Below are positions 10,020-64,000 of a DNA stretch of 64,000 nucleotides, piece by piece. The notes beneath the pieces are model-generated. The model searched no databases. It was not told where the DNA came from and saw only the letters and a program-made list of their open reading frames with translations. This DNA comes from Streptomyces sp. NBC_01198. GTDB taxonomy: Bacteria > Actinomycetota > Actinomycetes > Streptomycetales > Streptomycetaceae. The first letter of the stretch is position 1. Each line of letters opens with the position of its first letter. The stretch is from assembly GCF_036010485.1 (NCBI RefSeq), contig NZ_CP108568.1:4657001-4721000 (forward strand), read 5' to 3'. The position numbers and the translations under genes were made by a program.

Positions 10020-11861
10020 TTACCTCGGTTTCCCCCACGGCGACGCGTGATCGAGCTTGGTGTCACCGTACCGGCCGACGATGACGTCGGCCTGGTTCTG
10101 CAGGCTGACCGACGGCTTGCCGTTGTGCGTGTTCCAGTACGCGCTGTGGTCGCCGGCGTCGGAGCTCATGATGTTGCCGCCGAACTCCTCGTCGGTCGGG
10201 ATGACACCGCCGCCGCCGAGCCCGAAGAGGCGCCCGCCCTCGCGGACGAGGTGGTCGAGGCCGCCGGCTCCCTCGGCCCACATGTGCGTGGGGTCGATGC
10301 CCAGATCCCCGGCGTGCTCGGCCTGCATGCCGGGGCTGCCGAGGGCGATCACGTCGTCGGCGTCCATCCTGTCGCCCCAGTCGCCGTCCCCGTAGGAGAA
10401 CTTGGCGGTGTCGCCGATGAGCGTGCTGCCGTAGCTGTGGCCGATCAGCGTGGTGTGGGCGTGGCCGCCGGTGGCGCTCTGGTGGGCCACCGTGTTGCCG
10501 TCGAGGAAGCCGCGCAGCGCGGGGGCGCCGTCGTGCGCGTACGAGTCGTGGATGGCGGCGGGGATGTTGTCGGGAGCGTTGTAGTCGAACCAGGTGATGG
10601 TGGAGATGTTCGCGGTCGGCGCCTCGGCGTGGCTCGCCTGCCACAGGTTCACCCCCCGGTCGATGTCGCCGCCGATCTTGTCGAGCTTCGACGTCGTCCC
10701 TGGTACGTAGACGGCCGTGTGGTCGGCGGTGTCCGGATTCCCGTTGGCCAGGATGACCTTGCCGTCGCCTCTCCCCTCGGCGTCGAATCCGAGCAGGTAC
10801 GCCTCCGGCAGGCCGTTGGTGCCGGTGGCGTCGAAACGGGCCTGGATGGCGTCCATCCCCTTCAACCGGTCCCGGGCGTGCTGGAGTTCGCGGTACTTGT
10901 CGCCGTACTCGGCGTTCCACACCATCCATTCGGGGGTGTGCACTCCGCGGCCCGAGGGGTCGGCGATGTCGGCCCATTCGGCAGGCGGCGGCGGGACCGC
11001 GTTCACCTGCGTGCGGTAGCTGCCGCGGGTCTCCGCAAGGACCGTGCGGTTGGCCTGGTCGCGGACGGCGGCGGGCAGGCCGTCGAGGGCGCCGACCTGG
11101 GCGGGGTGGGCCCCGAGGTAGTCGGCCTGTTCCTGGGGGGTCAGGCTCCGCCACCAGTCGGCGTCGGCCTGGGGCCGGCCGTTCTTCGGCGGTGGGGTGA
11201 TGCGGTCGAGATAGGCGGCCGCGTCCTTGTCGACCCCTGCCATGTCCTGCTGGGCGTCCGCCCAGTCCGCCGCGGAGACCGTCAGGTCGTCGTCGGCCAT
11301 CAGCTTGCGCAGCTGCGGCGCCCACTTCCCGTCGACCGCGGTGGCCTCCCGCAGCGCGTCGGAGATCCGGTCGGCGATGTCCTGGGCCGCGGTGTGGTGC
11401 GGGTTGGGGTCCTGCTGGGCAGCCTGGTGGGAGATCGCCCGGGCTGTCGGGTCCGCGAGGCCGGTCGCCGTGCCGCCCGCGACGGGCTTGCCCTTGGTCC
11501 CGCCCCCGGCGGGGTAGCTGACCGAACCGTCGGCCGAGACGGTGAACTTGTGGGCGGCCGCGTCCGCGACGGCCGCGTCGAACTTCGCCTTCGCGGGGCC
11601 CACGTCGGAGGCGAAGGCCCGCAACGCCGTGCTGACCAGGCCGCATTCCACCTGGACGTAGTGGAAGTTCTCGGTCAGCTGGCTGAGTTGGGCGTGCGCC
11701 GCGTCCGCGGCGACGCCCTGCAGGGAGCCGCGCATCCTCGCGCTGATGCCGTTCTCGATGTCGCCCCTGCCCTGGTCGGCCATGTCGCTCAGCGCCCGGT
11801 AGCCGTCCGCCAGGCCTTCGAACTGGGCGGTCCTGAGCGCGGTGAGGGCCGGTACGTCCAC
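10020..11861 (-). CDS. DUF1023-type alpha/beta-hydrolase with N-terminal helical (WXG100-like) region
   Basis: This 613-aa protein has a helical N-terminus (about residues 1-110) like proteins handled by type VII secretion, and a C-terminal alpha/beta-hydrolase domain (about 340-600) with nucleophile elbow GHSYGS, Ser476. It lacks a classical signal peptide. GTG at 11861 lies 4 bp after the stop of the small helical-protein gene. DUF1023 proteins are common in actinobacteria and often sit beside WXG100-like genes. A secreted lipase/esterase or toxin role is inferred. The two downstream paralogues could be its partners. Confidence 0.75.
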   Translation of the reverse strand: MDVPALTALRTAQFEGLADGYRALSDMADQGRGDIENGISARMRGSLQGVAADAAHAQLSQLTENFHYVQVECGLVSTALRAFASDVGPAKAKFDAAVADAAAHKFTVSADGSVSYPAGGGTKGKPVAGGTATGLADPTARAISHQAAQQDPNPHHTAAQDIADRISDALREATAVDGKWAPQLRKLMADDDLTVSAADWADAQQDMAGVDKDAAAYLDRITPPPKNGRPQADADWWRSLTPQEQADYLGAHPAQVGALDGLPAAVRDQANRTVLAETRGSYRTQVNAVPPPPAEWADIADPSGRGVHTPEWMVWNAEYGDKYRELQHARDRLKGMDAIQARFDATGTNGLPEAYLLGFDAEGRGDGKVILANGNPDTADHTAVYVPGTTSKLDKIGGDIDRGVNLWQASHAEAPTANISTITWFDYNAPDNIPAAIHDSYAHDGAPALRGFLDGNTVAHQSATGGHAHTTLIGHSYGSTLIGDTAKFSYGDGDWGDRMDADDVIALGSPGMQAEHAGDLGIDPTHMWAEGAGGLDHLVREGGRLFGLGGGGVIPTDEEFGGNIMSSDAGDHSAYWNTHNGKPSVSLQNQADVIVGRYGDTKLDHASPWGKPR

Positions 11862-46884: not shown

Positions 46885-48052
46885 TGCGGTTCACCTCGTG
46901 ATGCCGCTGGGGCAGGCCGGCGGGCCTGGTCGGTCGTCGGGGCTGTGGGGGCCACCCTCCCCTGGAACCCGATTCAGCCACCGCGGGGGCCTGTTGGCGG
47001 CGACCGCGGTGCCTGTGCCGGAATACCGAGCCGCACGTACGGGTGCGAACCGGATGCACCCAGCGTAGTTCGCCGCCTCCCGACCGTTAAGGGTCTCGTG
47101 TCGGATGGCGCGAATCCAGCCCCTTACTCGAACGCCGTGATGGCGCGGAAAGTGCCCCTGCCGAAGATCCCGCGGCCATCCGATGATTGGCGGTCCCGAC
47201 CACTCGAACGGGCGCGGGCGGAGGGCCGCCGGCGGCGTGCGGCGCGTGCTCCCGGTATATGTGGCCGTGCGCCCGGCTGTGCGCTCTGTGCCGGAATGGC
47301 CGCGAGGGGTTGCATGGTGATCCGTGGGTCGGCCCGCGCTTCCGTCAGGCGGCTATGGCGGGGTGCGGCGGGCCAGCAAGTTCCGCTGCCACAATCCCCG
47401 CGGGTGGCGGACCGGCCCGGGGGGCGTTGAGTCGCTTCCCGGGCCGTGTGTTGTGCGCGGGCCGCCCACCCGGCAGGGGGCCGGCGGCCCTATTTCGGTT
47501 GCTACGGACGGCAGTTGGCGGCGAGGAAGGACGTACCGCCGAGTACGCAGGGTAGTTGTACGGCGCACCCGAGGTCGCTCACGGTGGCGGCCGCGGTCGG
47601 TCCCGGGTGGCGGGCGGGGCGTTCCGCAACGTCCAGGACGAAGATCCGCGGCGGAAAACGATCGTCGCGAGCGGTCCCGGTTACCCGGCATATCACCCCC
47701 GGCATGTGCCGCAGCCGCGCCAAAACTTTGGCGCGAACCCGACGTTTCGGCCGAGCGGTGACTTCCGGATCGCGTCGCTGTCCGCAACGCCCCGATTACG
47801 CACCACCGGTGGCCGCCGGCCGACGCCGATCCGCCGGGATCCACGTCGATCCGTGTCCCGTACGTCACACCCGGCCGGTGTCCGGCGCACGAACCGGCGC
47901 ACCTGGGAGCCCTCATGCGCCTCTCTGCGCGCGTCCACGTGGCAGCATGGTCTTTCGGACGTCAGACGTGGCGGCACGGCGGGGCGAGGCGCGCGCGAGG
48001 GAGCGGTGGGTCTTACCTTCGCATCGGCTGTCCACAGCCTGTGGAGGCGACG
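46885..48052. other. 1.2-kb noncoding region between divergent genes
   Basis: No reading frame here has streptomycete codon bias; several long ORFs are rich in Arg/Pro/Gly and look like frame noise. The region presumably contains promoters of the TPR-type regulator and the asparagine-synthase-like gene. Its length suggests complex control or an unannotated RNA. Confidence 0.5.
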
Positions 48053-50332
48053 ATGCGGTGGTTGGTGGGGTGGAGCAGTGCCACCGCGGGTCCCGTTCCC
48101 GGCGATGGCGGCGCGACCTTGCGGCCGGTCGGTGCCCAACTGCTGTGGGGCGACCTCGATCCGCTGTGGGCGGTGGGCGACTGGCGGCCCGACGAGGTCC
48201 GGGTGGTGCAGGCGGATTCCGCGCATGCCGCGGGCGCCGGCGGCACGTACGGCTCCTCGTCCTACGGTGCTTACGGTTCCGGCGCGAACGGCAGCGCCTA
48301 CGGCGGCGGTTACGGGTCGCGGGCGAACGGCGGCCCGAGCGGCGGCCCGCAGGGGATCGCCCGGCTCGCGGTGCTCGGGCGCTGCGGGGCCAGCGACGCG
48401 CAGCTCAGGCTCGGCCTGGTCGCCGCCCGCGGCGGCGCGCTGCGCCACGTGACCGCCTGGCCGGGCAGTTACACCGCCGTCCTGCAACTGGGCCGCCGCA
48501 TCACCGTGCTGGGCGACCTCGCCGGCGCCAGGCCGGTCTTCCACACCCGCTTCTCCCGCGGTACGGCCTACGCCACCGCCGCGTTGCCGCTCGCCGACCT
48601 CATCGAGGCCGGGCTCGACGTCACCCACCTCGCCGCGATGCTCGCCTGCCCGGACGCGCCCGAAGCCCTCGGCGACGGGACCCCGTACCTCGGGGTGCGG
48701 CGGGTCCCGCCGGGCCACGCGCTGACCCTGCGCGACGGCGCCCCCGAGATCACCGGCTACGAACCGACCGCCTCGCTCGCCGTCGGCCACCAGCCCGCCA
48801 CCGCGGCCGACGCGGACGCGGCCATCGCCGCCATACGCGACGCGCTGGTCGAGTCGGTACGGGCCCGGCTGGCGCAGCCGCGGTTCGTGCCGGACGGGAC
48901 CGCGATGCCCGGCCAGGAAGAGGCGGACGGCCACGGCGGCGGCCCGATGCCCGCGCCCGGCATCGGGGCCGACCTGTCCGGTGGCAGCGCATCCGCCACG
49001 CTGGCGCTGCTCGCCGCCGGCCTGCCCGGGATGCCCGGCATGCTGCCGGGCGCACCCGGCTCGCTGGCCGGCGAACGTCTCCTCGCCGTCACCTTCAACG
49101 ACCTCACCGCCGGCGGACTGCCGCTGCGGGACGGCGAGTTGGCCCGGGCGGGCGAACTCGCCGCGGACCCGCGGCTGCGGCACGTCGTCGTCCCCGGCGG
49201 CGAAGAAGCCCTGCCCTACGCCGACTTGACCGGCGGCCCGGCCGTACCGCTCACCGACGAGCCAGGCCCGTCGCTGATCGTCGCAGAACGCCACCGGCGC
49301 AGGCTCGCCGCGGGCGGCGCCGACCACCTCATCGGCTTCGGCGCCCGGCAGGTCCTCGACGCGCACCCCGCACGGCTCGCCGACCTGCTCATGGACCGGC
49401 GCCGGCGCCACCTCGTACGGCCCGTCGCCGCGTTGACCCGGGCGGGCGGCCCGGCCGCGGGCCCCGCGGTGCTGGTCCCCTTCACCGTGCCCATCACCGT
49501 CTACCGGGCCGCGCGGCGGCTGGCCCGCACTCCCTATCAACAGGGTGTGGAGGACGCGGCGGCCCGGCTGCTGCGGTACGCCTCCGGCGGGGTGTCGGGC
49601 GGTTCGTTCGGTTCTTTCGGTTCTTTCGGCTCCGTGGGCGGCTCCGACGGGCCCATCGGCGCGTCGCTCGCCGCGATGGCCTGGGTGCGGCCCGGGCCCG
49701 CCGCCCGGTGGCTCACCGGGGAGGCGCTGGCCGAGGTGTCGGTCCGCCTGCAGGACGCCGCCAGGCGGCCGTGGCCGATGGAGCGCCCCGGCGAGCGGCG
49801 CGCCCGGGCCGCGCTCGCCCGGCACGCGGCCGACTTCCGCGTCCTGGAGCAGGCCGCCGCCGTCCCCAGCCAGCGGCTGCACGCGCCCTACCTCGACAAC
49901 GCCGTCGTCCGCGCCGCCCGCGCCCTCCCCGGCGCCCTGCGCGTACGGCCCGGCGCCCGCGCCGACATCCTGCGCGACGTCCTCGCCAGCGCCGGAGTAC
50001 GCGAGCTGCCGGCCGGCTGGGGCGTCGCGTCCCACTCCTCGGCCGCGGCGGCCGCCGCCAGGGCCGGGATGCGGTGCGCGATCGACCCGCTGGTCGAGCT
50101 CTTCGAGGCGCCGCTCCTCGCGGACGCGGGTCTGGTGGACGCGCGGGTCGTACGCGATGCCCTGCGGGCGGCGGTGGACACGCCTGGGGCGCCGCTGGAG
50201 GGGTTGGGGGAGGTGGTTGCCGTGGAGCTGTGGCTGCGGCGGTTGCTGGCGCGGCGGGGGTCTTGCTGGACCGGGACGGAGTCGCCTCGGCGGCGGGCGG
50301 TTGCGAGTGGGGTGCAGCGGCTTTCTCTGTGA
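48053..50332 (+). CDS. Asparagine-synthase-like protein lacking the glutaminase cysteine
   Basis: This 759-aa protein resembles class B asparagine synthetases. A degenerate N-terminal Ntn-like domain begins MRWLVGW (no Cys2), and a C-terminal synthase domain (about 250-740) follows. The PP-loop reads SGGSAS at 309-314, so the Asp of SGGxDS is replaced by Ala. A Gly/Tyr/Ser repeat insert lies at about 62-100. GTGGAGGCGACG precedes the ATG. Without the glutaminase Cys it cannot use glutamine ammonia in the usual way. Relatives include beta-lactam and lasso-peptide synthetases, but no precursor gene is near. Confidence 0.78.
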   Translation: MRWLVGWSSATAGPVPGDGGATLRPVGAQLLWGDLDPLWAVGDWRPDEVRVVQADSAHAAGAGGTYGSSSYGAYGSGANGSAYGGGYGSRANGGPSGGPQGIARLAVLGRCGASDAQLRLGLVAARGGALRHVTAWPGSYTAVLQLGRRITVLGDLAGARPVFHTRFSRGTAYATAALPLADLIEAGLDVTHLAAMLACPDAPEALGDGTPYLGVRRVPPGHALTLRDGAPEITGYEPTASLAVGHQPATAADADAAIAAIRDALVESVRARLAQPRFVPDGTAMPGQEEADGHGGGPMPAPGIGADLSGGSASATLALLAAGLPGMPGMLPGAPGSLAGERLLAVTFNDLTAGGLPLRDGELARAGELAADPRLRHVVVPGGEEALPYADLTGGPAVPLTDEPGPSLIVAERHRRRLAAGGADHLIGFGARQVLDAHPARLADLLMDRRRRHLVRPVAALTRAGGPAAGPAVLVPFTVPITVYRAARRLARTPYQQGVEDAAARLLRYASGGVSGGSFGSFGSFGSVGGSDGPIGASLAAMAWVRPGPAARWLTGEALAEVSVRLQDAARRPWPMERPGERRARAALARHAADFRVLEQAAAVPSQRLHAPYLDNAVVRAARALPGALRVRPGARADILRDVLASAGVRELPAGWGVASHSSAAAAAARAGMRCAIDPLVELFEAPLLADAGLVDARVVRDALRAAVDTPGAPLEGLGEVVAVELWLRRLLARRGSCWTGTESPRRRAVASGVQRLSL

Positions 50333-55695: not shown

Positions 55696-55769
55696 GCCGC
55701 CTTAGCTCAGTTGGCCAGAGCAACGCACTCGTAATGCGTAGGTCTCGGGTTCGAATCCCGAAGGCGGCT
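55696..55769 (+). tRNA. tRNA-Thr (anticodon CGT)
   Basis: A 74-nt cloverleaf: acceptor GCCGCCT pairs with AGGCGGC, the anticodon stem ACGCA/TGCGT encloses CTCGTAA (anticodon CGT, codon ACG), and the T-arm reads CGGGTTCGAATCCCG. CCA is not encoded. It marks the left edge of an island-like region. Confidence 0.97.
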
Positions 55770-55777
55770 CCACGGTG

Positions 55778-55807: not shown

Positions 55808-56012
55808 TCTTGTTTTCGTTGACCTTGGAATCCGGCCTAATCGGACACGTGTGGTCTATGCATCGCAATGCGCGGGTCGCAGGTTTGGTTTCCGTGACCG
55901 CATAGACGACTAGGGCTTCTGACCTGGTCTTTTGTGCATTTGGGAGGGGTGAGGCGGGCGCACGCAGTGGGTCTCGGTGGACAACCGGTGGACAGGTGTG
56001 CATGACGCTTCA

Positions 56013-56582
56013 TCAGGGTCTGTCGCTGTCCCTGAACGGACGGGTGAGTATGCGGCCATCCTCGATGGAGGGTCGGCGGCGCCGGGACTGTCCGGTGCCG
56101 ACAGATCTCACGCAGCCGCTTCGATTCCGACGATGATCACATACCTGACGTTCGGGCGGTGGCCGATCGCGCAGTGCCGGCAGCGAGCGGTGCGGGTCGA
56201 TGAAGGCGAGCGTCCCGATCGCGTACGGGGCGTCGAACGGCTGGGCTCCGGCCAGGTACTCGGCCACGTCTCCTCGGACGAACTCCACGCCGCCGATGTC
56301 TGCGTGGGTGGAGACGGCGCGCTCGTGCCGGGTCGGGGACAGCTCGATACCGGTGACGCGGGCTCCATGAGCGTGGGCGAGGTGGACGGCGTGGTGGCCG
56401 GCCCCGGATCCGATATCCAGGATGCGGCGGCCGGTGATGTCACCGAGCACTTCTGCTCCCGGTCCGATCCCTTCCCAGGGCGTCCAGCCGAGCCGGTCGG
56501 GGATGGGCGGGGTGAAGGCGCGAGCTAGTTGGCGCTGGCCGTAGATCTGCCAGGCCCGGGTGTCGGTGTCCTCGGCGGGCAC
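56013..56582 (-). pseudogene. C-terminally truncated SAM-dependent methyltransferase
   Basis: The first ~140 residues are a good class I methyltransferase: WQIYGQRQL..., SAM motif ILDIGSGAGHHAVHLA, GIELSP, FVRGDVAEYL, GTLAFIDPHRSLPAL. After that (about position 56165 in DNA) the frame continues into Arg/Pro-rich sequence with no family character, so the last third of the fold is missing. GTG at 56582 has a strong AGGAGG. The break faces the tRNA-Thr gene, consistent with a deletion or integration junction. The product may be inactive. Confidence 0.7.
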
Positions 56583-56617
56583 CGGTTGCCTCCTGGTGGG
56601 CGGGCGGGTTCGGGGGG

Positions 56618-57520
56618 TCAGGTGTGCGTGATCAGGTAGGCGGGGCCCTCGCCGTGCCGAGCCCGTTCGACGGCGTCGAGGCGGGCGAAGGCGCGCGCCC
56701 CCATCAGTTCCTGCCAGGTCGCGAGGTCGTGGACGGCCCACATGTCGTGCTCAGCGGGATCGAGGTGGATCCGGCCGAGCTGGTCGGCGGTCAGATGCCC
56801 TCCGTCGAAGATGAGCCCTACCTTGTTCAGCGGCAGGCGCGGCCCGGCGTGCAGGAAGTGCGTCAGGAGCAGCTTCGGCGTGTCCAGACCGAGTTCGAGG
56901 CCCGTCTCCTCGACCGTCTCGCGCTGTGCGGTCTGCAGAGGGTCCTCGCCAGGGGCGTCGAGATCGCCGCCCGGGAACTGCCAGAGCCGCGAGCCGTAGA
57001 CCGAGCGCAGTTGGACCGGCCGGTCGTGCTCGTCGCGGATGTACAGGCAGCCGTAAACCGTGTGGTGGGGGACGGTCTGCGCGTACTGCGTGGGCGTCAT
57101 CGGCATGGGGCGGCCCGGCCGGGCAGGGCGGTGATCGAACGCGAGGGCGAGAACGCCTAGCGCCTCTCTGGCCGGCGGGTAGATGCTGTGGAGGTTGGCG
57201 AGTTGCTCTTCGGGCAACCCGTCCGGGTCGACGCGTGCGGGGTCCTCGGAGGTGAGCAGATCCTCGAAGGAGTGGTACCGGGTGATCCGCTGCACGGTGA
57301 CGTCGAGTTCCCGTGCGGTGTCCCGGTCGTGGAAGACGACCGTGTCCCCGGCGGCGACAGCGCGCTTGTTCGGGGTTGCGACCCTCACTTCGATCGTCTT
57401 GCGGCCGGCTTCAATTTGGCGGTAGTACCGCCCGAGCAGGTGCATGTGGTGCTCTTGGGGTTCGTATCCGGCCGTCGGACCCGGGACGGCCGGGATCGAC
57501 TGCTGGGTGTCGTCAGGCAT
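56618..57520 (-). CDS. ASCH-Nudix fusion protein
   Basis: This 300-aa protein joins an N-terminal ASCH domain (about 25-120: LLGRYYRQIEAGRKTIEVRV, GDTVVFHDR), an RNA-binding beta-barrel fold, to a C-terminal Nudix hydrolase (about 150-300) with WQFPGGDLDAPGEDPLQTAQRETVEETG. The G-to-E spacing of the Nudix box is two residues longer than usual, but the REXXEE core is intact. Nudix enzymes cleave nucleoside diphosphates linked to other groups. GGAGG precedes the ATG. It lies between the kinase-dipeptidase and the truncated methyltransferase genes. Confidence 0.85.
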   Translation of the reverse strand: MPDDTQQSIPAVPGPTAGYEPQEHHMHLLGRYYRQIEAGRKTIEVRVATPNKRAVAAGDTVVFHDRDTARELDVTVQRITRYHSFEDLLTSEDPARVDPDGLPEEQLANLHSIYPPAREALGVLALAFDHRPARPGRPMPMTPTQYAQTVPHHTVYGCLYIRDEHDRPVQLRSVYGSRLWQFPGGDLDAPGEDPLQTAQRETVEETGLELGLDTPKLLLTHFLHAGPRLPLNKVGLIFDGGHLTADQLGRIHLDPAEHDMWAVHDLATWQELMGARAFARLDAVERARHGEGPAYLITHT

Positions 57521-57648
57521 ACGTGCCTCCGTTCGATGCGTTCCGTCCGTTGCGGTCTTGGGATCGCAACAGGGCCGGGGGCGATGTCCACACTCCTGTG
57601 CCCGCGGCTCGGCACGGGTGGCGAGGAAGCGGCCGACGCTGCAAGGTG

Positions 57649-58917
57649 CTAAGCCAGTTCGATCGGCCCATACCGCGCGTGCGGCTCCTGCCGCATCAGC
57701 GCGTCGTACCGGTCCGCTACCGAGAAGTGCCAGAACTCGGTTCCGTAGTTCGTAAAGCCGGCGGTCTCCATGGCGTTGAGCAGCAGCGCGCGGTAGTGGC
57801 GTGCGTAATGGCTGAGGTTCGTGGCGTGAGTGAAGCAGGCGCCGTCGCTCTCCTCGGGGGAGGCGTTGACGCGGGTGCCGAGGTCGATTTCGTGGCCGTC
57901 CTGGTCGACGAGGGTGACGTCCACCGCCGCGCCCGCGGAGTGGGGCGCGATCTGCGGTGGCGATACGTAGCGGCCGGCGGCCTGGTGCAGCTGTTCAGCG
58001 GTCCAGCCGGGGTGGGCGGCGGCCAGCTCGTCCCGGTATTCGGTGAAGTAGCGCTGCTGGAGGGCGAGCGGCCGGTAGCCCTCGATGAACAGCAGGTCGG
58101 TGCCGGCGGGCAGGAGCGAGCGGGCGTGCTCCAGCCGGGCCAGGACGCCCTCGCGGACGAGGGTGAACGCGCCGAGCGGGTCCTGCTTACGGGGATCGAC
58201 GCGGAAGCTGTGGCCCCGCATGTCGACGAGTGGCTCCCCGCACTCGCGCACCGGGATCGCGGCGACCTGCGGATCGGACATCAGCACCAGAGCGTTCATC
58301 GAGTCTCCCTGTGACGGCTCGCACTGCGGCGGCGGGATGGGGGAGGCAGCGGCCAGGCCGGTTTCGCGCACGATTCGCGCGAGGGTTTCCCGCAGTGTGC
58401 TGTCGGCCGGGATCACGGTCTCCAGACCGCCGGGCAGCAGATCCAGCTCGCGGTACCAGGAGGCGAGGTGGCTGTCGGTGACTTGCGCCAGGTAAGCGGC
58501 ATCCGCCTTCGACGCGTGCCGGGCGAATGTCGTTTCCAACGGCACGTCCAGGTAGTAGCAGCTGGAGACGCCGCGGTGGTCCCGCACCAGAGACGTGATC
58601 ATGTGGCCGTAGCGGTCGGCGTACAGGATCCCTTCGAGCACCACGTGAAAGCCGGCGTTCAGTGCTTCGCGGGCGATCCGGGCCAGCAAGGCGATGTTGG
58701 CGCCGCGCGCGGTGTCGTGTTCCCTGAGCACGTTCCGGCGGATCACGTCCTGCCCCACGATCGCGATACCGCGGCCGTAGTGATCTCGCAGGCTCTGGGC
58801 CACGCTTGACTTGCCTGAAGCCGAGTTGCCGCGGATCACCACAAGGCGGGTGTCCTCGCGGCCGGCCGCGGTTGCAGTGGACAGGCGACGGTGTGCGCCA
58901 CTCGGCGTGCCGGTCAT
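57649..58917 (-). CDS. P-loop kinase fused to VanX-like D-Ala-D-Ala dipeptidase
   Basis: This 422-aa protein begins with a small kinase (about 22-190; Walker A GNSASGKSS at 30-38, then VGQDVIRRNVLREHD) of the zeta-toxin/AAA_33 type. From residue 207 a complete M15D dipeptidase follows: GYRP (Arg of the active site), HSAGAAVD (zinc His and Asp), and EFWHF (catalytic Glu and zinc His). The ATG overlaps the upstream TGA (ATGA). An internal ATG at 58299 is preceded by GGGAGA, so a free dipeptidase may also be made. The dipeptidase family hydrolyses D,D-dipeptides in the cytoplasm. Confidence 0.85.
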   Translation of the reverse strand: MTGTPSGAHRRLSTATAAGREDTRLVVIRGNSASGKSSVAQSLRDHYGRGIAIVGQDVIRRNVLREHDTARGANIALLARIAREALNAGFHVVLEGILYADRYGHMITSLVRDHRGVSSCYYLDVPLETTFARHASKADAAYLAQVTDSHLASWYRELDLLPGGLETVIPADSTLRETLARIVRETGLAAASPIPPPQCEPSQGDSMNALVLMSDPQVAAIPVRECGEPLVDMRGHSFRVDPRKQDPLGAFTLVREGVLARLEHARSLLPAGTDLLFIEGYRPLALQQRYFTEYRDELAAAHPGWTAEQLHQAAGRYVSPPQIAPHSAGAAVDVTLVDQDGHEIDLGTRVNASPEESDGACFTHATNLSHYARHYRALLLNAMETAGFTNYGTEFWHFSVADRYDALMRQEPHARYGPIELA

Positions 58918-60395
58918 GTGGGCCAGCCCGTCTCGCTGTACAGCTCCCCGTTCTGGATCTTTGCGATGGCCACCCGGGTGTAGGGGACGAGGTCGTCGGG
59001 GAGCGCGGTCGGGTCCCAGAATTTCCACTGGGTGCACTTGTCAGGCTCGCGCAGTTCCGGCTCGCCGCTCCAGGCGCGGGCGCGGAAGAACAAGCCCATG
59101 CGGGGCCGGTCCCCGGCCTTGTCGATGTGGTGGATGACGTGGACGAGTTCGACGTCTTGGGGCTCGATGTGCAGGCCGGCTTCCTCTTGCGCCTCCCGGA
59201 TCAGGCAGGTGATGGCGCTCTCCTGCTCGCAGTGGCCGGCCAGGACATGCCAGGCGGACGGCGCGAATGCGGAGTCGGGGTGACGCAGCCCGAGCAGCAC
59301 CGTCCCGTCGGGCCGCTCCAGGTAGAGATGGACGCCGATGACGTTGAGGACCGTGCCGAGCGGCGAAGCTCGGCGCTCCTCCTGCGGTGCGAGCCCGTCC
59401 TGGGGCGCGGTACTGGCCGGGCGGCTGGCGGCGTGGCGCCGTACGAGGTCGCTGGTCGTGTCTGTGATACGGAGACGGTGCAGGTCGTCGGGGGCGAACC
59501 AGGCCAGCATCACCCCTTCTGTGAGGTGGAGTTCGCGGGGATCGCCGTTCCAGCGGCCGGCGTGGATGGCGATGGGCACGGTAGCGCCGGCGTCGTCGGC
59601 GGCGTACTCGGTGCCGAAGGGAATCAGGTCGGCGATGTGGAGGCCGGCCTCCTCGGCCAGTTCACGCCGGACGGTGTGTTCCATGGTGGCGTCCTGGGGT
59701 TCGCGGCCGCCGCCCAGCAGGGACCACATGCCAGGCTCCCGGATCCGGCTGGGGAAGTAGTCACGCAGGTGGAGCAGGTACTCGCCGCGGTCGTTGTAGA
59801 TCAGGGCGGAGGCGTTGCCGGCCTCCGGTTCGGCTTCGGGCGTGAGCTTGAGCAGCTTCTCGCGCAGGGAGGGTGAGGTCACCTTGTCCATGGGCCGCCA
59901 CTCGACACCGCCGACCTCGTCTTCCTGCAGCACCACCGGCACCTCTGCCGCGGTGTGCAGACGGAAGAGGAACCGGAGGTCGAAGTGCTGGTGACCGGGT
60001 TCGCCTTTGCTCGGGCGGGCGTCGATGGTGTGGATGTCGATGTCGAACGGCACGGTCTCGTAGCCGGGCCACGGTGCCACGGCCTGGGGCGGGATCCCGG
60101 TCTCCTCGTGCAGTTCCCGCAGCGCCGCCCCTACCAGGGACTCGTCGGCGGGCTCGGGGTGTCCGCCGGGGGCGAGGACCTTCCCGCTCGCAAGGTGCAG
60201 CACGTGCAGGACGCGGCCGAGCGGATCGACGACGATCGCGCCGCAGGTGACGTGTCCGGTGAAGGTGGAGCGGCTGGCGATGTCGGTGGGACGGTCGAGG
60301 GCGTCCAGGAGTATGCCGAGCTGCTCGCGCTCCTGAGGCTGGCGAGCGAGATAGGTGGCGACGGCCGTGCGGATGTGGTCGTGCGACAACGGCAT
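58914..60395 (-). CDS. Triple-Nudix hydrolase
   Basis: This 493-aa protein contains three consecutive Nudix domains with cores RELHEE (93-98), RELAEE (244-249) and REAQEE (400-405). Domain boundaries are about 45-180, 190-320 and 345-485. Each retains the metal-binding REXXEE, so all three may be active, perhaps on different nucleotide conjugates. The glycine/first-Glu part of box 2 (GGGREPQDA) deviates from consensus. Its stop overlaps the kinase-dipeptidase start (ATGA). The start at 60395 follows GAGG about 10 nt upstream. Confidence 0.87.
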   Translation of the reverse strand: MPLSHDHIRTAVATYLARQPQEREQLGILLDALDRPTDIASRSTFTGHVTCGAIVVDPLGRVLHVLHLASGKVLAPGGHPEPADESLVGAALRELHEETGIPPQAVAPWPGYETVPFDIDIHTIDARPSKGEPGHQHFDLRFLFRLHTAAEVPVVLQEDEVGGVEWRPMDKVTSPSLREKLLKLTPEAEPEAGNASALIYNDRGEYLLHLRDYFPSRIREPGMWSLLGGGREPQDATMEHTVRRELAEEAGLHIADLIPFGTEYAADDAGATVPIAIHAGRWNGDPRELHLTEGVMLAWFAPDDLHRLRITDTTSDLVRRHAASRPASTAPQDGLAPQEERRASPLGTVLNVIGVHLYLERPDGTVLLGLRHPDSAFAPSAWHVLAGHCEQESAITCLIREAQEEAGLHIEPQDVELVHVIHHIDKAGDRPRMGLFFRARAWSGEPELREPDKCTQWKFWDPTALPDDLVPYTRVAIAKIQNGELYSETGWPT

Positions 60396-60453
60396 GGGAC
60401 GACCTCGGAGGTAGGCGGGGTGGGACGAGTCGGAGGCGGGGTGGGCGTTCGTG

Positions 60454-60663
60454 TCAGCTCAGCCGCATCCCCTCCGCAGGGATCTCCTCGACGGCGGCGG
60501 CGCGAGCGGTGGGCAGGCCCCACTGCTCGCGTGCCGTCTCCGCCGCGGGCGGTGATGACCGCGGCGGCGCCGAGCCACGCCGCATGCCGGGGGACGGCAT
60601 ACCGCGCCGCGGGCAGAGCAGAACGCGGGCGACGCGATCCGAAGGGGAGACGGGAGAGGTCAC
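60454..60663 (-). CDS. Small ORF between methyltransferase and triple-Nudix genes
   Basis: This 69-codon ORF starts at GTG 60663 with GGAAGG about 8 nt upstream and ends 58 bp before the triple-Nudix gene. The product is Arg/Pro/Ser-rich in the middle with a single Cys and an amphipathic C-terminal third (EQWGLPTARAAAVEEIP). It lacks the FxLD motif and Cys cluster of FxLD lanthipeptides. It could be a modified peptide, a small partner protein or non-coding; codon bias is modest. Confidence 0.4.
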   Translation of the reverse strand: MTSPVSPSDRVARVLLCPRRGMPSPGMRRGSAPPRSSPPAAETAREQWGLPTARAAAVEEIPAEGMRLS

Positions 60664-60741
60664 GTGGCTCTGCCTTCCGAGACGGTAGGGGGGCGAATGT
60701 GCAGCGAGGCCCGGCGAACGGTGATCAGGAAGCACCGCCGT

Positions 60742-62064
60742 TCATCCGGCGCCGCAGCTCCCAGAGTCGGTGAGCAGGGCAGCGCTGCCGGGCACGATCG
60801 GCCAGTCCACGGTGATACGGGTGTGCTTCTTGGCGAACACATGCGGTTCGTGGTCCGTGCCCGCCGGGGCACAGCCGGCTGCCGGGCGGGCGGTGATGAG
60901 GGGGCAGCGGGCGCTGCGGTGGTTGCGGTGCCAGTGCTCGACCTGCTCGGCCATCTCTTGCGCGGCGAGGTGTCCTTGGGTGCCGTGGCCGTGGACGACG
61001 AACTCGTACAGGCCCTTGCCGTCGGTCCCGTCGCCGATGCGTTCGGTGGCCAGCCGGGCGAGGGAGGCTCCGCGGACGATGGCGGCGCCGGGCCAGTGCC
61101 GGGGCGGCGGGTTCAGGATCCCGTTGTCGGCGTCGGGGTCGACCGAGAGGCGGCAGAAGCCGGGCAGGGCGCCGGCGAGGTGGAGGGTGAGGGTGTCGAA
61201 GGGTTCCTGCCCGCCGACGGTGATGTGGGTGCGGGTCACGGTCGGCTCGCGGGTGAGGGCGGGGGCGAGCTGGTCGACGGGCAGCGGGGTGCCGTCTTCC
61301 CATGAGAGGTGGACGCCGGTGCCGGGGACGGTGCGGCGGTTCGTGTTCCAGACGCCGTCGCCCTGCATGGCGACGAAGCCGCAGACGACGAGGGGCTCGT
61401 CGCTGTGCAGGGCTCCCTTGTCCTTGGTGAAGCCGATGGCCCAGTGGTAGCCGTGCAGACGCAAGGGTGCGACGAGACGGCCGCCCTCGGCCAGGGCGTC
61501 GATCCAGGGCAGGTCCCAGGTGTCGACGGTGACCACGATGGCGTCAAATCCGCCGTCGGGCACCACACCGGCGGGCAGGTGCTCGGCGTCCGCGGTGACC
61601 ACGCGGACCTGGTCGTATCCGGTCTGGCGCAGGAATCGGGTGGCCCGGTCGGTGACGGCGGGATCGATATCGAGGGTGGTGACCTGGCCGTTCGGGCCGG
61701 CGAGTTCGGCGATGAGCGCGGCGTTGTAGCCGCCGGAGCCGATCTCCAGAACGCGGTGGCCTGGCTGGATCCGGGCTGCTTCGAGCATGTCGGCCTGCAG
61801 CCAGGGCGCGGAGATGGAGCTGGTGACGGTGCCGTCGTCGCTGTGGCGGGTGGCGACGATGTCGTCGGCGTACGCGGTGTGGAGGGGGACCTCGGGGGCG
61901 AAGGCGTGACGGGGCACGGTGCGCAGGGCGTGGTCGACCGCGGGGGTGCGGATGTGTCCTGCGGCGGCGAGCTGGTCGGCCAGCCCGTGGCGCAGGGCGG
62001 TGGGGTCGTCGAGGTCCGTGGTGGGCGACGTGGTCACGGCGGGCCTTTCGGTCGAGCGGGTCAT
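60742..62064 (-). CDS. PIMT-like methyltransferase of the 'FxLD system' type
   Basis: This 440-aa protein has an N-terminal protein-isoaspartate-methyltransferase-like domain (about 25-240). It shows RHAFAP, the SAM motif VLEIGSGGYNAAL at 105-117, and TLDIDPAVTDRATRFL. A C-terminal extension of about 190 residues (LTLHLAGALPGFCRLSVD, EQVEHWHRNH) follows, typical of methyltransferases that accompany actinobacterial peptide maturation. Its ATG overlaps the stop of the ABC transporter gene (ATGA). The target is unknown because no precursor or dehydratase gene is in the window. Confidence 0.85.
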   Translation of the reverse strand: MTRSTERPAVTTSPTTDLDDPTALRHGLADQLAAAGHIRTPAVDHALRTVPRHAFAPEVPLHTAYADDIVATRHSDDGTVTSSISAPWLQADMLEAARIQPGHRVLEIGSGGYNAALIAELAGPNGQVTTLDIDPAVTDRATRFLRQTGYDQVRVVTADAEHLPAGVVPDGGFDAIVVTVDTWDLPWIDALAEGGRLVAPLRLHGYHWAIGFTKDKGALHSDEPLVVCGFVAMQGDGVWNTNRRTVPGTGVHLSWEDGTPLPVDQLAPALTREPTVTRTHITVGGQEPFDTLTLHLAGALPGFCRLSVDPDADNGILNPPPRHWPGAAIVRGASLARLATERIGDGTDGKGLYEFVVHGHGTQGHLAAQEMAEQVEHWHRNHRSARCPLITARPAAGCAPAGTDHEPHVFAKKHTRITVDWPIVPGSAALLTDSGSCGAG

Positions 62065-64000
62065 ACCTGGTCCGAGACGGCGGGCGGGGCGGGGTGGGGG
62101 ATGGCCGCGGTCGGGGTGTACTGGGCGGCCTGGGCGTCGAACATGGCGGCGTACCGGCCGCGGGCGGCCATGAGTTCGTCGTGGGTGCCGTGCTCGGCGA
62201 GGTGCCCGCCTGCGAGGACGTATATGTGGTCGGCGTGGCGGACGCCGGACATGCGGTGGGTGACCAGGACGACAGCCCGGTTCGGGGCGGCGAGGCGGTG
62301 GATGCGGTCGAAGGCTTCGATCTCGGCTTCGGGGTCGAGGGCGGAGGTCGGCTCGTCGACGATGAGGACACCGTCTGCCTGTGATGTCGAACTGCGCCAG
62401 TGCGTGCGGGCCAGGCCGACTTTCTGCCATTCGCCGCCGGACAGTTCTATGGCGCCGCGGAACATGCGGGCCAGCAGGCTGCGCAGGCCGTCGGGGAGTT
62501 TGGCGATGACGGGGCCGGCGGCGGCGTAGTCGACCGAGGGCCCCAGGTCCTGGTCTGTTGCGGGGTGGTCGGGGCGCCCGAGGCGGATGTTCATCGCGGC
62601 GGTCACGGGCCAGCGCTGGAAGTCCTGGGTCAGCAGGGAGACCCGCTCGAAGACCTGGGCGCGGTCGAGGCCGGTGAGGTCCGCCTCGCCCCAGCGCAGC
62701 GCGCCGGAGGCGGGCAGCAGCATGCCGGAGAGGACCTTCATCAGGGTGCTCTTGCCGGAGCCGTTCTCGCCCACCACCGCGGTCACCGACCCCATCGGCA
62801 GGGTCAGGGACACCCCGTCCAGGGCAGCGGTGTCCCGGTCGGGGTAGCGGTAGGTGACCTGGTCCAGAACGATCTCCTTGACCCGTTCCGGTACGGGCGC
62901 CCCGCCGGACGGCAGTGTCCGCCGCCCGGCCTGGGCGAGGAAGCGGCCGTGGTCGCGGACGTAGAGGCTCTCCTCGTGGAGCTGGTTGATGTTCATGACC
63001 AGTGCGCCCAGGCTCGCCGAGCCGGTGCGCACGGCGATGACAGCGGTCCCGGCGACGGCGAGGCTCATGTGCCCGGCCGTGACCAGCCAGAACATGGCGC
63101 CGTAGGTCGCGGCCATGGCCAGGCCGGACAGCGCTGAGGCGACCCATTCGGTCAGGGCCTTGCTGGAGGCGAGGCGTTCTTGTTCGGCCTCCGCGCTCTC
63201 GGCCATGCGCTCGTAGCGGCTGAGGAGGAAGGGGCCGACGGCGTGGAGTCGGACCTCCTGGGCGGCGGTGCGTTCGGTGAGCAGGTTGCCGATCAGGCGG
63301 CTGGCCCGTACGTGCTCGATCCAGCTCATCACCGACACGTACCGCTCCTGGGCCACGCGCATGGCCCCCCAGCCGCGCGGGGCGGCGATGAGGATCAGCA
63401 GGGGCAGCAGCAGCGGGTGCAGTACGGCCAGGACACCGGCGGTGGTGATCAGCGAGATGAGGCCGTTCAGCGCCGCGACGCAGGCGCTGATCATGCGGCG
63501 GGCGGAGCCGGGGCCGTGCTGGGCGATGTCGACGAGGCGACGGAAGTCGGGGTCGTCGATGGCCTCCAGTTCGACTTTGGCTGCCGCGGCCAGGTACTGG
63601 GTGGTGGCGATCCGCTCCACCTTGGGCTCCAGCCGCCCGGCACGGGAGGTGGACCAGGCGGACAGGGCGGAGTTGACGACACCGACGACCGCGGCGGCCA
63701 GGAGACCGGGCAGCAGCGCGTGCAGCCGCTCGGGGGCGCTACCGGTGCCGGCGAGCAGCGCGTGCATGACGGCGTTGACGGCCAGCAGCCCGGCGGCTGC
63801 GGCGATGCCCTGGCAGATCTCGCTGACGCCGACCGAGAGCAGGGCACGCCGGTCGGCCTGCCACGCCATGCGCAGCGTGGCGCCGACGAGTGAGGGCATG
63901 GAGCGCAGCGCGGACATCATCGTCAGGTCCAGGCTCGCGTGCTCGTGCTGGGACCAGCCCATGTCGTAGCGCAGGGGCCCGCCGAACAGCTCGTGTTCGG
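62061..64000 (-). CDS. ABC transporter, fused permease-ATPase (5' end outside the window)
   Basis: The gene is open to the right edge; the visible part starts in-frame with EHELFGGPLRYDMGW. The protein is an ABC half-transporter: a membrane domain of about six helices (about 30-330 of the visible part), then an ATPase with Walker A VVGENGSGKSTLM, signature LSGGEWQK and Walker B VLIVDEPTSALD. Such fused exporters often move peptides or lipids. The stop overlaps the methyltransferase start (ATGA). Export of a product of this operon is the likely role, by context. Confidence 0.87.
   Translation of the reverse strand, partial: EHELFGGPLRYDMGWSQHEHASLDLTMMSALRSMPSLVGATLRMAWQADRRALLSVGVSEICQGIAAAAGLLAVNAVMHALLAGTGSAPERLHALLPGLLAAAVVGVVNSALSAWSTSRAGRLEPKVERIATTQYLAAAAKVELEAIDDPDFRRLVDIAQHGPGSARRMISACVAALNGLISLITTAGVLAVLHPLLLPLLILIAAPRGWGAMRVAQERYVSVMSWIEHVRASRLIGNLLTERTAAQEVRLHAVGPFLLSRYERMAESAEAEQERLASSKALTEWVASALSGLAMAATYGAMFWLVTAGHMSLAVAGTAVIAVRTGSASLGALVMNINQLHEESLYVRDHGRFLAQAGRRTLPSGGAPVPERVKEIVLDQVTYRYPDRDTAALDGVSLTLPMGSVTAVVGENGSGKSTLMKVLSGMLLPASGALRWGEADLTGLDRAQVFERVSLLTQDFQRWPVTAAMNIRLGRPDHPATDQDLGPSVDYAAAGPVIAKLPDGLRSLLARMFRGAIELSGGEWQKVGLARTHWRSSTSQADGVLIVDEPTSALDPEAEIEAFDRIHRLAAPNRAVVLVTHRMSGVRHADHIYVLAGGHLAEHGTHDELMAARGRYAAMFDAQAAQYTPTAAIPHPAPPAVSDQV

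Follow-up and report, generated by a model that had tools for sequence, protein, structure and literature searches.

We found that the minus-strand gene run at positions 56,013-64,000 of a 64,000-nucleotide stretch of Streptomyces sp. NBC_01198 (the window, part of one 7.9-Mb contig) is, judged by comparison with a related genome, the distal part of an FxLD lanthipeptide-type locus: the LanABC half has been lost, two Nudix genes are mostly deleted and the last gene is cut. In transcription order the run encodes an ATP-binding cassette (ABC) exporter, a methyltransferase resembling protein isoaspartyl methyltransferase (PIMT), a triple-Nudix protein, a fusion of a kinase and an M15 dipeptidase, an ASCH-Nudix protein and a methyltransferase fragment. 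We put the chances at about even that the locus represents a mobile module accessory to FxLD class I lanthipeptide (lanthimiditide) clusters, in which an aspartate of a peptide would be modified and the peptide exported, the remaining enzymes having accessory or self-protection roles. What is new is a family of unannotated 36-50-residue peptides encoded in front of ABC genes, of which a 47-amino-acid open reading frame (ORF) immediately before the ABC gene here is a member.

An original prediction made from the letters of the window had described the run as a candidate undescribed system that might make and export a peptide or nucleotidyl-peptide, or act in conflict or self-protection. Its observation of the gene content is confirmed: Pfam and NCBIfam profile searches returned the domains that it listed. 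Its interpretation as a whole is partly supported. A gene set of this kind does recur, but the copy in the window arose by deletion from a locus linked to FxLD lanthipeptides; it has known kin and is not a free-standing system, and we found no direct evidence for nucleotidyl-peptide chemistry or a conflict function.

Origin of the island

Evidence on descent comes from a locus of Streptomyces sp. NRRL S-37 (L041; also recorded as L099). By blastn, the island is colinear with L041 in three blocks, at 56,167-60,550 (87% identity), 60,551-64,102 (89%) and 64,085-64,670 (84%), where positions beyond 64,000 continue the numbering of the window (window-equivalent positions). Relative to L041, about 926 bp are missing at 60,550/60,551, amounting to most of a double-Nudix gene, and about 460 bp are missing where L041 has a single-Nudix gene. 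In L041 the module is preceded by an FxLD-type precursor (recognized by eye), LanB and LanC (Pfam), a lyase-methyltransferase fusion and a 381-amino-acid gene, the last of the FxLD lanthipeptide cluster, whose product has no Pfam or NCBIfam match. The third block reaches the end of this gene, and a stub of it is left in the island (67% protein identity over residues 291-357, E = 6e-21). The junction lies at 64,670/64,671, and from 64,671 on the sequence is as in another relative, G063, at 93-94% identity. Because the island is colinear with L041, keeps the stub of the 381-amino-acid gene and contains deletion junctions, it is, by this comparison, a deletion derivative of such a locus. The run had been taken for a complete operon, which it is not: its last methyltransferase gene is truncated and the double-Nudix gene is a remnant.

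The original prediction had pointed to the sequence beyond 64 kb as the place to look for lanthipeptide-type genes. The peptide ORF and the stub do lie there; no LanA, LanB or LanC gene is found at the island. The five matches to PF04738 (LanB) in the genome are at 4.54, 1.78 and 0.51 Mb, none of them near the module at 4.71 Mb, and the FxLD precursor family TIGR04363 has no match in the island, its sole genome match at E<=1 being at 4.544 Mb. The latter belongs to a separate FxLD lanthipeptide cluster at about 4,544,430-4,551,020 (L100 3428-10023), some 167 kb from the module, which consists of the TIGR04363 precursor (47.3 bits, cut-off 30), LanB, a lyase-methyltransferase fusion and then an ORF with a Nudix-type match near its end.

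The genes that are intact look constrained, because their ratios of non-synonymous to synonymous substitution rates (dN/dS) against L041 are 0.15 for the ABC gene, 0.20 for the kinase-M15 fusion, 0.25 for the triple-Nudix gene, 0.26 for the ASCH-Nudix gene and 0.39 for the FxLD methyltransferase; the truncated methyltransferase, for which the comparison is out of frame, was left out. These values bear on the explanation that the island is decaying here and no longer has a function. Such decay would fit the absence of LanABC, the large deletions in the double-Nudix and single-Nudix genes and the truncated last methyltransferase. We nevertheless regard it as improbable: five large genes are open at the ratios given above, even if some of this constraint may date from before the deletions, and the peptide ORF is intact.

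A tRNA-Thr gene as insertion site

The island begins next to a tRNA-Thr (CGT) gene, and the sequence to its left is shared with G063 up to 55,817 and with G006 up to 55,885. At the position of the island, G063 carries about 6.2 kb of unrelated sequence with an integrase. A Phage_integrase (PF00589) gene stands beside the same tRNA-Thr in three of eight related loci (L109, L112 and L116), one of the eight, L114, spanning only 2.4 kb. On these comparisons the tRNA-Thr(CGT) gene is an insertion hotspot in relatives. In G059 the same tRNA-Thr is followed by an integrase and, farther on, by a LanB gene (Lant_dehydr_N and _C) and an FxLD methyltransferase.

A location of this kind also suggests Nudix-based conjugal immunity or another form of mobile-element maintenance. 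The available part of PMC3218068 describes Pif as a Nudix-domain protein in the immunity of pSAM2, and Pif-type proteins of actinomycete integrative and conjugative elements resemble the present case in that a Nudix gene stands at a tRNA-linked actinomycete locus; in addition, the triple-Nudix protein has matches in 121 plasmid records. The protein here differs from Pif-type proteins in its three Nudix domains and its other neighbours, no integrase or transfer gene was found among the ORFs of the island (ORF list and Pfam scan), and the exporter, methyltransferase and dipeptidase would have no obvious role in immunity. We consider this explanation very improbable.

Recurrence of the module

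At E<=1e-60, 20 of 150 family genomes, the present one included, encode the triple-Nudix protein, which also occurs in at least 49 stretches of species genomes, among which the listed loci L038-L067 are from Streptomycetaceae. Of the plasmid matches mentioned above, 26 cover at least 80% of the protein. We tabulated 59 loci; L012 and L042 among them record a single place, and many of the divergent loci give partial matches only. An ABC gene of type a occurs in 25 of the 59 and one of type b in 13; the FxLD methyltransferase stands alone in 20 and is fused to Nudix in 19; and double-Nudix, M15 and kinase genes occur in 23, 18 and 15, respectively. LanB-type genes are found upstream in 7 of the 59, LanC in 8, the lyase in 8 and the 381-amino-acid protein in 12. 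In 20 random 20-kb control regions there was no match to LanB, LanC, lyase, kinase or M15, and only weak ABC and regulator matches. The set thus recurs in many Streptomycetaceae loci, and the possibility that these genes never occur together, which would have counted against the original prediction, therefore falls away.

The link with lanthipeptide clusters is direct in the two loci that we examined closely, where the module is placed after an FxLD cluster. For example, the annotated gene order on plasmid L105 is FxLD lanthipeptide, LanB, LanC, fxlM, hypothetical, endonuclease/phosphatase, ABC, NUDIX, phosphotransferase, major facilitator superfamily (MFS), methyltransferase, HIT, phosphotransferase and fxlM. 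Plasmid L104 is annotated as ABC, NUDIX, HIT, phosphotransferase, MFS, PIMT-methyltransferase, phosphotransferase, GNAT, M15 and fxlM. Multi-Nudix, kinase-VanX and ASCH-Nudix proteins, which recur as a set that had no explanation, are in this way tied to clusters for ribosomally synthesized and post-translationally modified peptides (RiPPs).

A short peptide family in front of the ABC genes

The 47-amino-acid ORF upstream of the ABC gene has a homologue in L013 at 57% identity, and our first searches found the family in eight clear places in 297 genomes. In these searches we set aside as chance any match with E above 6e-7; one such match, in G193, later proved to be a decayed copy. Divergent homologues were found before other ABC types, and an alignment-based search returned 27 matches in 26 of 394 genomes, 8 of them already known and 19 new. 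We examined 18 of the new matches, leaving out that in G349, which has internal stops. An ABC gene follows directly in 14 and after one intervening gene in 3; the remaining match, inside a larger protein in L188, is spurious. On the tree of the ABC partners, which have diverged widely, L187 forms a very long branch whose placement is unsure.

Members are 36-50 residues long with the consensus M[NH]P...H.P..[FI]E...variable...RPDT.[YW].A. The start codon is ATG or GTG in the 27 rows examined, with one exception, ATT, and gaps within the ORF are multiples of three in both DNA alignments. In two subfamilies the ratio of non-synonymous to synonymous differences (pN/pS) is 0.48-0.49 for the N-terminal part, 1.2 for the middle part and 0.6-0.85 for the C-terminal part, so that constraint on the peptide as a whole is weak. 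Thirteen aligned members match no NCBIfam family, and their single Pfam match is at chance level (E = 0.25).

Two further candidate peptides were rejected. A 26-residue upstream frame ('MSDRT...') has pN above pS (0.147 against 0.103), is frameshifted in the genome of the window and has no ATG in L037. A third peptide type before other ABC genes was dropped because the reading frame of its conserved stretch differs from locus to locus.

Upstream of the peptide, about 200 bp (L005 approximately 10250-10440, minus strand) are strongly conserved and contain an imperfect inverted repeat around TTCTAGATTTCG; this DNA is possibly a promoter or operator. In several loci a 428-residue protein without a Pfam or NCBIfam match is encoded directly upstream of the peptide (L046 3193-4479 and orthologues).

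The stop codon of the peptide overlaps the ATGA or GTGA start of the next gene across the listed loci, including 17 of the 18 new ones, and this arrangement suggests a rival explanation, namely that the ORF is a regulatory leader (a translation-coupled or stalling upstream ORF) for an ABC/phosphotransferase operon and not a precursor. The coincidence of the C-terminal codons with the downstream ribosome-binding region, the closeness of pN to pS overall and the conserved upstream DNA would all agree with a leader. Constraint is clearest at the N-terminus, however (pN/pS about 0.5), and a stalling peptide would have no need of it there. A conserved RNA structure at the peptide was also considered and rejected: there is no Rfam match, the covariation term of the consensus fold (+0.82) is not supportive, and the pairs joining the ends break without compensation in some loci. 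We judge a leader function to be rather unlikely.

The conserved aspartate and the methyltransferase

What links the peptide to the METHYLTRANSFERASE is the C-terminal Asp (RPDTR[YW].A), present in all 14 loci with a downstream PIMT-type methyltransferase and in 11 of the 18 peptide loci without one in the available sequence. Repeat records of one place (L036, L041, L099) were not counted again, and the decayed copy L183 (in G193), which is fused to a Nudix frame, was excluded. Fisher's test gives p=0.010, or 0.024 after removal of near-copies and 0.021 for loci with at least 10 kb of sequence, all values uncorrected for kinship. The association is suggestive. A conserved Asp is the target of PIMT homologues in lanthipeptides and in the linear imiditide and pamtide precursors, according to PMC13001092, PMC10787088 and PMC7268733.

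These data suggest the following mechanism for the accessory module, whose details we hold tentatively, at about one chance in three. The substrate would be the product of the small ORF before the ABC gene, synthesized on the ribosome, or, less likely, an FxLD peptide provided in trans. The PIMT-like enzyme would methylate the conserved C-terminal Asp (PDT), yielding an aspartimide or isoaspartate, and the ABC protein would export the processed peptide. The Nudix, kinase and D,D-dipeptidase proteins may be accessory or self-protection enzymes acting on putative phosphorylated, nucleotidylated or cell-wall precursor substrates, or may instead tailor a phosphorylated or nucleotide-linked intermediate.

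Several observations weigh against this account. Over the whole peptide, pN is 0.226 against a pS of 0.266 (0.285 against 0.335 in the second subfamily), and two close pairs have a ratio above 1. The 3' end of the ORF overlaps the ribosome-binding region of the next gene, and part of the conservation therefore lies at the DNA level. Some modules, such as L055 and L049, have the methyltransferase and no detectable peptide. By manual count the loci lacking the Asp represent about five independent losses on the ABC tree, for which we estimate a chance probability of about 0.06, and the Asp may serve something else, because it is kept in 11 of the 18 loci without a detectable methyltransferase. 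The methyltransferase at 60,742-62,064 lacks the WXXXGXP motif known from the enzymes of imiditides, lasso peptides and graspetides, and FxLD clusters already hold a fused methyltransferase of their own. Nor are Nudix genes a general feature of FxLD methyltransferase loci, an idea that we rejected because 8 of the 41 loci examined have them, compared with 1 among 20 random regions (p=0.25); the 41 regions derive from 43 of 59 matches above the cut-off, 7 at already-known triple-Nudix loci being left out and 9 others not included. Finally, the Nudix domains of the module may not all be enzymes, because in L013 a fused methyltransferase-Nudix-methyltransferase protein has no RExxEExG box and only one of the two domains of the double-Nudix protein has it.

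A different reading of the same genes is a self-protection or detoxification island without a peptide product of its own, in which the ABC and MFS transporters, phosphotransferases, HIT, Nudix and acetyltransferase proteins and the VanX-like dipeptidase would defend against the lanthipeptide or other antibiotics and the methyltransferase would act on an FxLD peptide in trans. Related modules do add phosphotransferase, MFS, HIT, GNAT and M15 genes, some lack LanABC in the stretch examined, and a single separate FxLD precursor, with the core TDDGC, is encoded in the host genome. This reading, which we consider possible but doubtful, leaves unexplained the conservation of the peptide ORF before ABC genes and the invariance of its Asp where the methyltransferase is present. 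With comparable hesitation we propose that the 36-50-residue ORFs may form an undescribed class of short ribosomal peptides of Streptomycetaceae, exported by a dedicated ABC protein, modified at the Asp where a PIMT-type methyltransferase is present, and served by dedicated multi-Nudix, kinase and dipeptidase enzymes, with or without a lanthipeptide cluster. A peptide with one conserved C-terminal Asp is a concrete candidate substrate for PIMT-type methyltransferases that lack known partners; for 3653 PIMT-type enzymes, PMC10787088 reports no indication of a role in RiPP biosynthesis or protein modification.

Genes of the island and its surroundings

The features are collected in Table 1. Reading back the sequence bore out both ATGA overlaps of the original prediction, between the ABC and methyltransferase genes and between the triple-Nudix and kinase genes. 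Its four Nudix domains in two proteins also hold, each with the RExxEExG core, as does its hint of an FxLD-type methyltransferase, which matches TIGR04364 ('methyltransferase, FxLD system') at 387.6 bits against a cut-off of 320. The PCMT match of this protein covers residues 27-232 of 439 scanned, so that a C-terminal extension remains. The ASCH match is marginal (21.3 bits, cut-off 21.2). The M15 domain aligns with VanX (1r44) and carries HxxGxAxD and ExWH, which we take to be the VanX-like Zn-binding and catalytic motifs; it is below the NCBIfam VanX cut-offs (NF033115, 34.8 against 320 bits; NF007557, 59.4 against 176 bits) and is best described as VanX-like, a predicted D,D-dipeptidase.

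Table 1. Features of the island and its left border, in window coordinates
Feature	Position	Strand	Basis or remark
tRNA-Thr (CGT)	55,696-55,772	+	ARAGORN; left border of island
Island	55,886-64,000, on to window-equivalent 64,670		Flank comparison with G063 and G006
Truncated class I methyltransferase	56,013-56,582 (end approximate)	-	Homology to L041 ends at 56,167; counterparts in relatives are methyltransferase+Nudix
ASCH-Nudix protein	56,618-57,520	-	Pfam ASCH and NUDIX
P-loop kinase (AAA_33) fused to VanX-like M15 D,D-dipeptidase (Peptidase_M15; predicted)	57,649-58,917	-	Pfam
Triple-Nudix protein	58,914-60,395	-	Pfam NUDIX, three matched stretches
Double-Nudix gene remnant	60,454-60,735 (approximate)	-	blastn colinearity with L041; double-Nudix proteins of relatives
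PIMT-type methyltransferase, FxLD family	60,742-62,064	-	TIGR04364 and PCMT
ABC exporter, transmembrane part and ATPase	62,061-64,000, cut by window end	-	ABC_tran; runs past the window to a GTG start at window-equivalent 64,052
47-amino-acid peptide ORF	Window-equivalent 64,105-64,245 (L005 10106-10246)	-	Outside window, just upstream of ABC gene
Stub of 381-amino-acid gene of FxLD cluster	Beyond window, to window-equivalent 64,670		Protein identity to L041 gene

Two neighbouring genes were recorded besides. A plus-strand gene at 47,915-50,332 encodes a protein related to albusnodin/ikarugamycin macrolactam cyclases (NF033561, 176 bits, under the cut-off of 300), and on the far side of the island (L005 12929-14314, minus strand) lies a gene for an NsdA-family TPR-like regulator (NF053720, 374 bits, cut-off 75).

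Relation to known systems

PIMT-modified RiPPs and FxLD clusters are already known. In the open-licence literature we found no description linking the Nudix module to FxLD or PIMT RiPPs, which is weak evidence of absence, and the module is not described in the available parts of PMC3218068, PMC10787088, PMC7268733, PMC13001092 and PMC13118837.

The closest likeness is to FxLD class I lanthipeptide clusters (LanS_A; lanthimiditides, for example OlvA/OlvS_A), with which the island shares the TIGR04364 methyltransferase, an ABC gene and the stub of the 381-amino-acid gene, and which lie directly upstream of the module in several relatives. Unlike them, the island is without LanA, LanB and LanC and adds the set of Nudix, kinase-VanX and ASCH-Nudix genes. 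Imiditides and pamtides, which comprise a precursor and PIMT only, are similar in having a small linear peptide with a conserved Asp near a PIMT-like gene. In contrast to these, the peptide does not look rich in Gly, Pro, Asp and Lys, as described in the available part of PMC13001092, the methyltransferase is without WXXXGXP, and the peptide also occurs where no methyltransferase is detectable. The M15 domain resembles VanX-type D-Ala-D-Ala dipeptidases in its family and in its Zn and catalytic motifs, but it differs from VanX in being fused to an AAA_33 kinase, in falling under the NCBIfam cut-offs and in its place within a putative peptide-export module.

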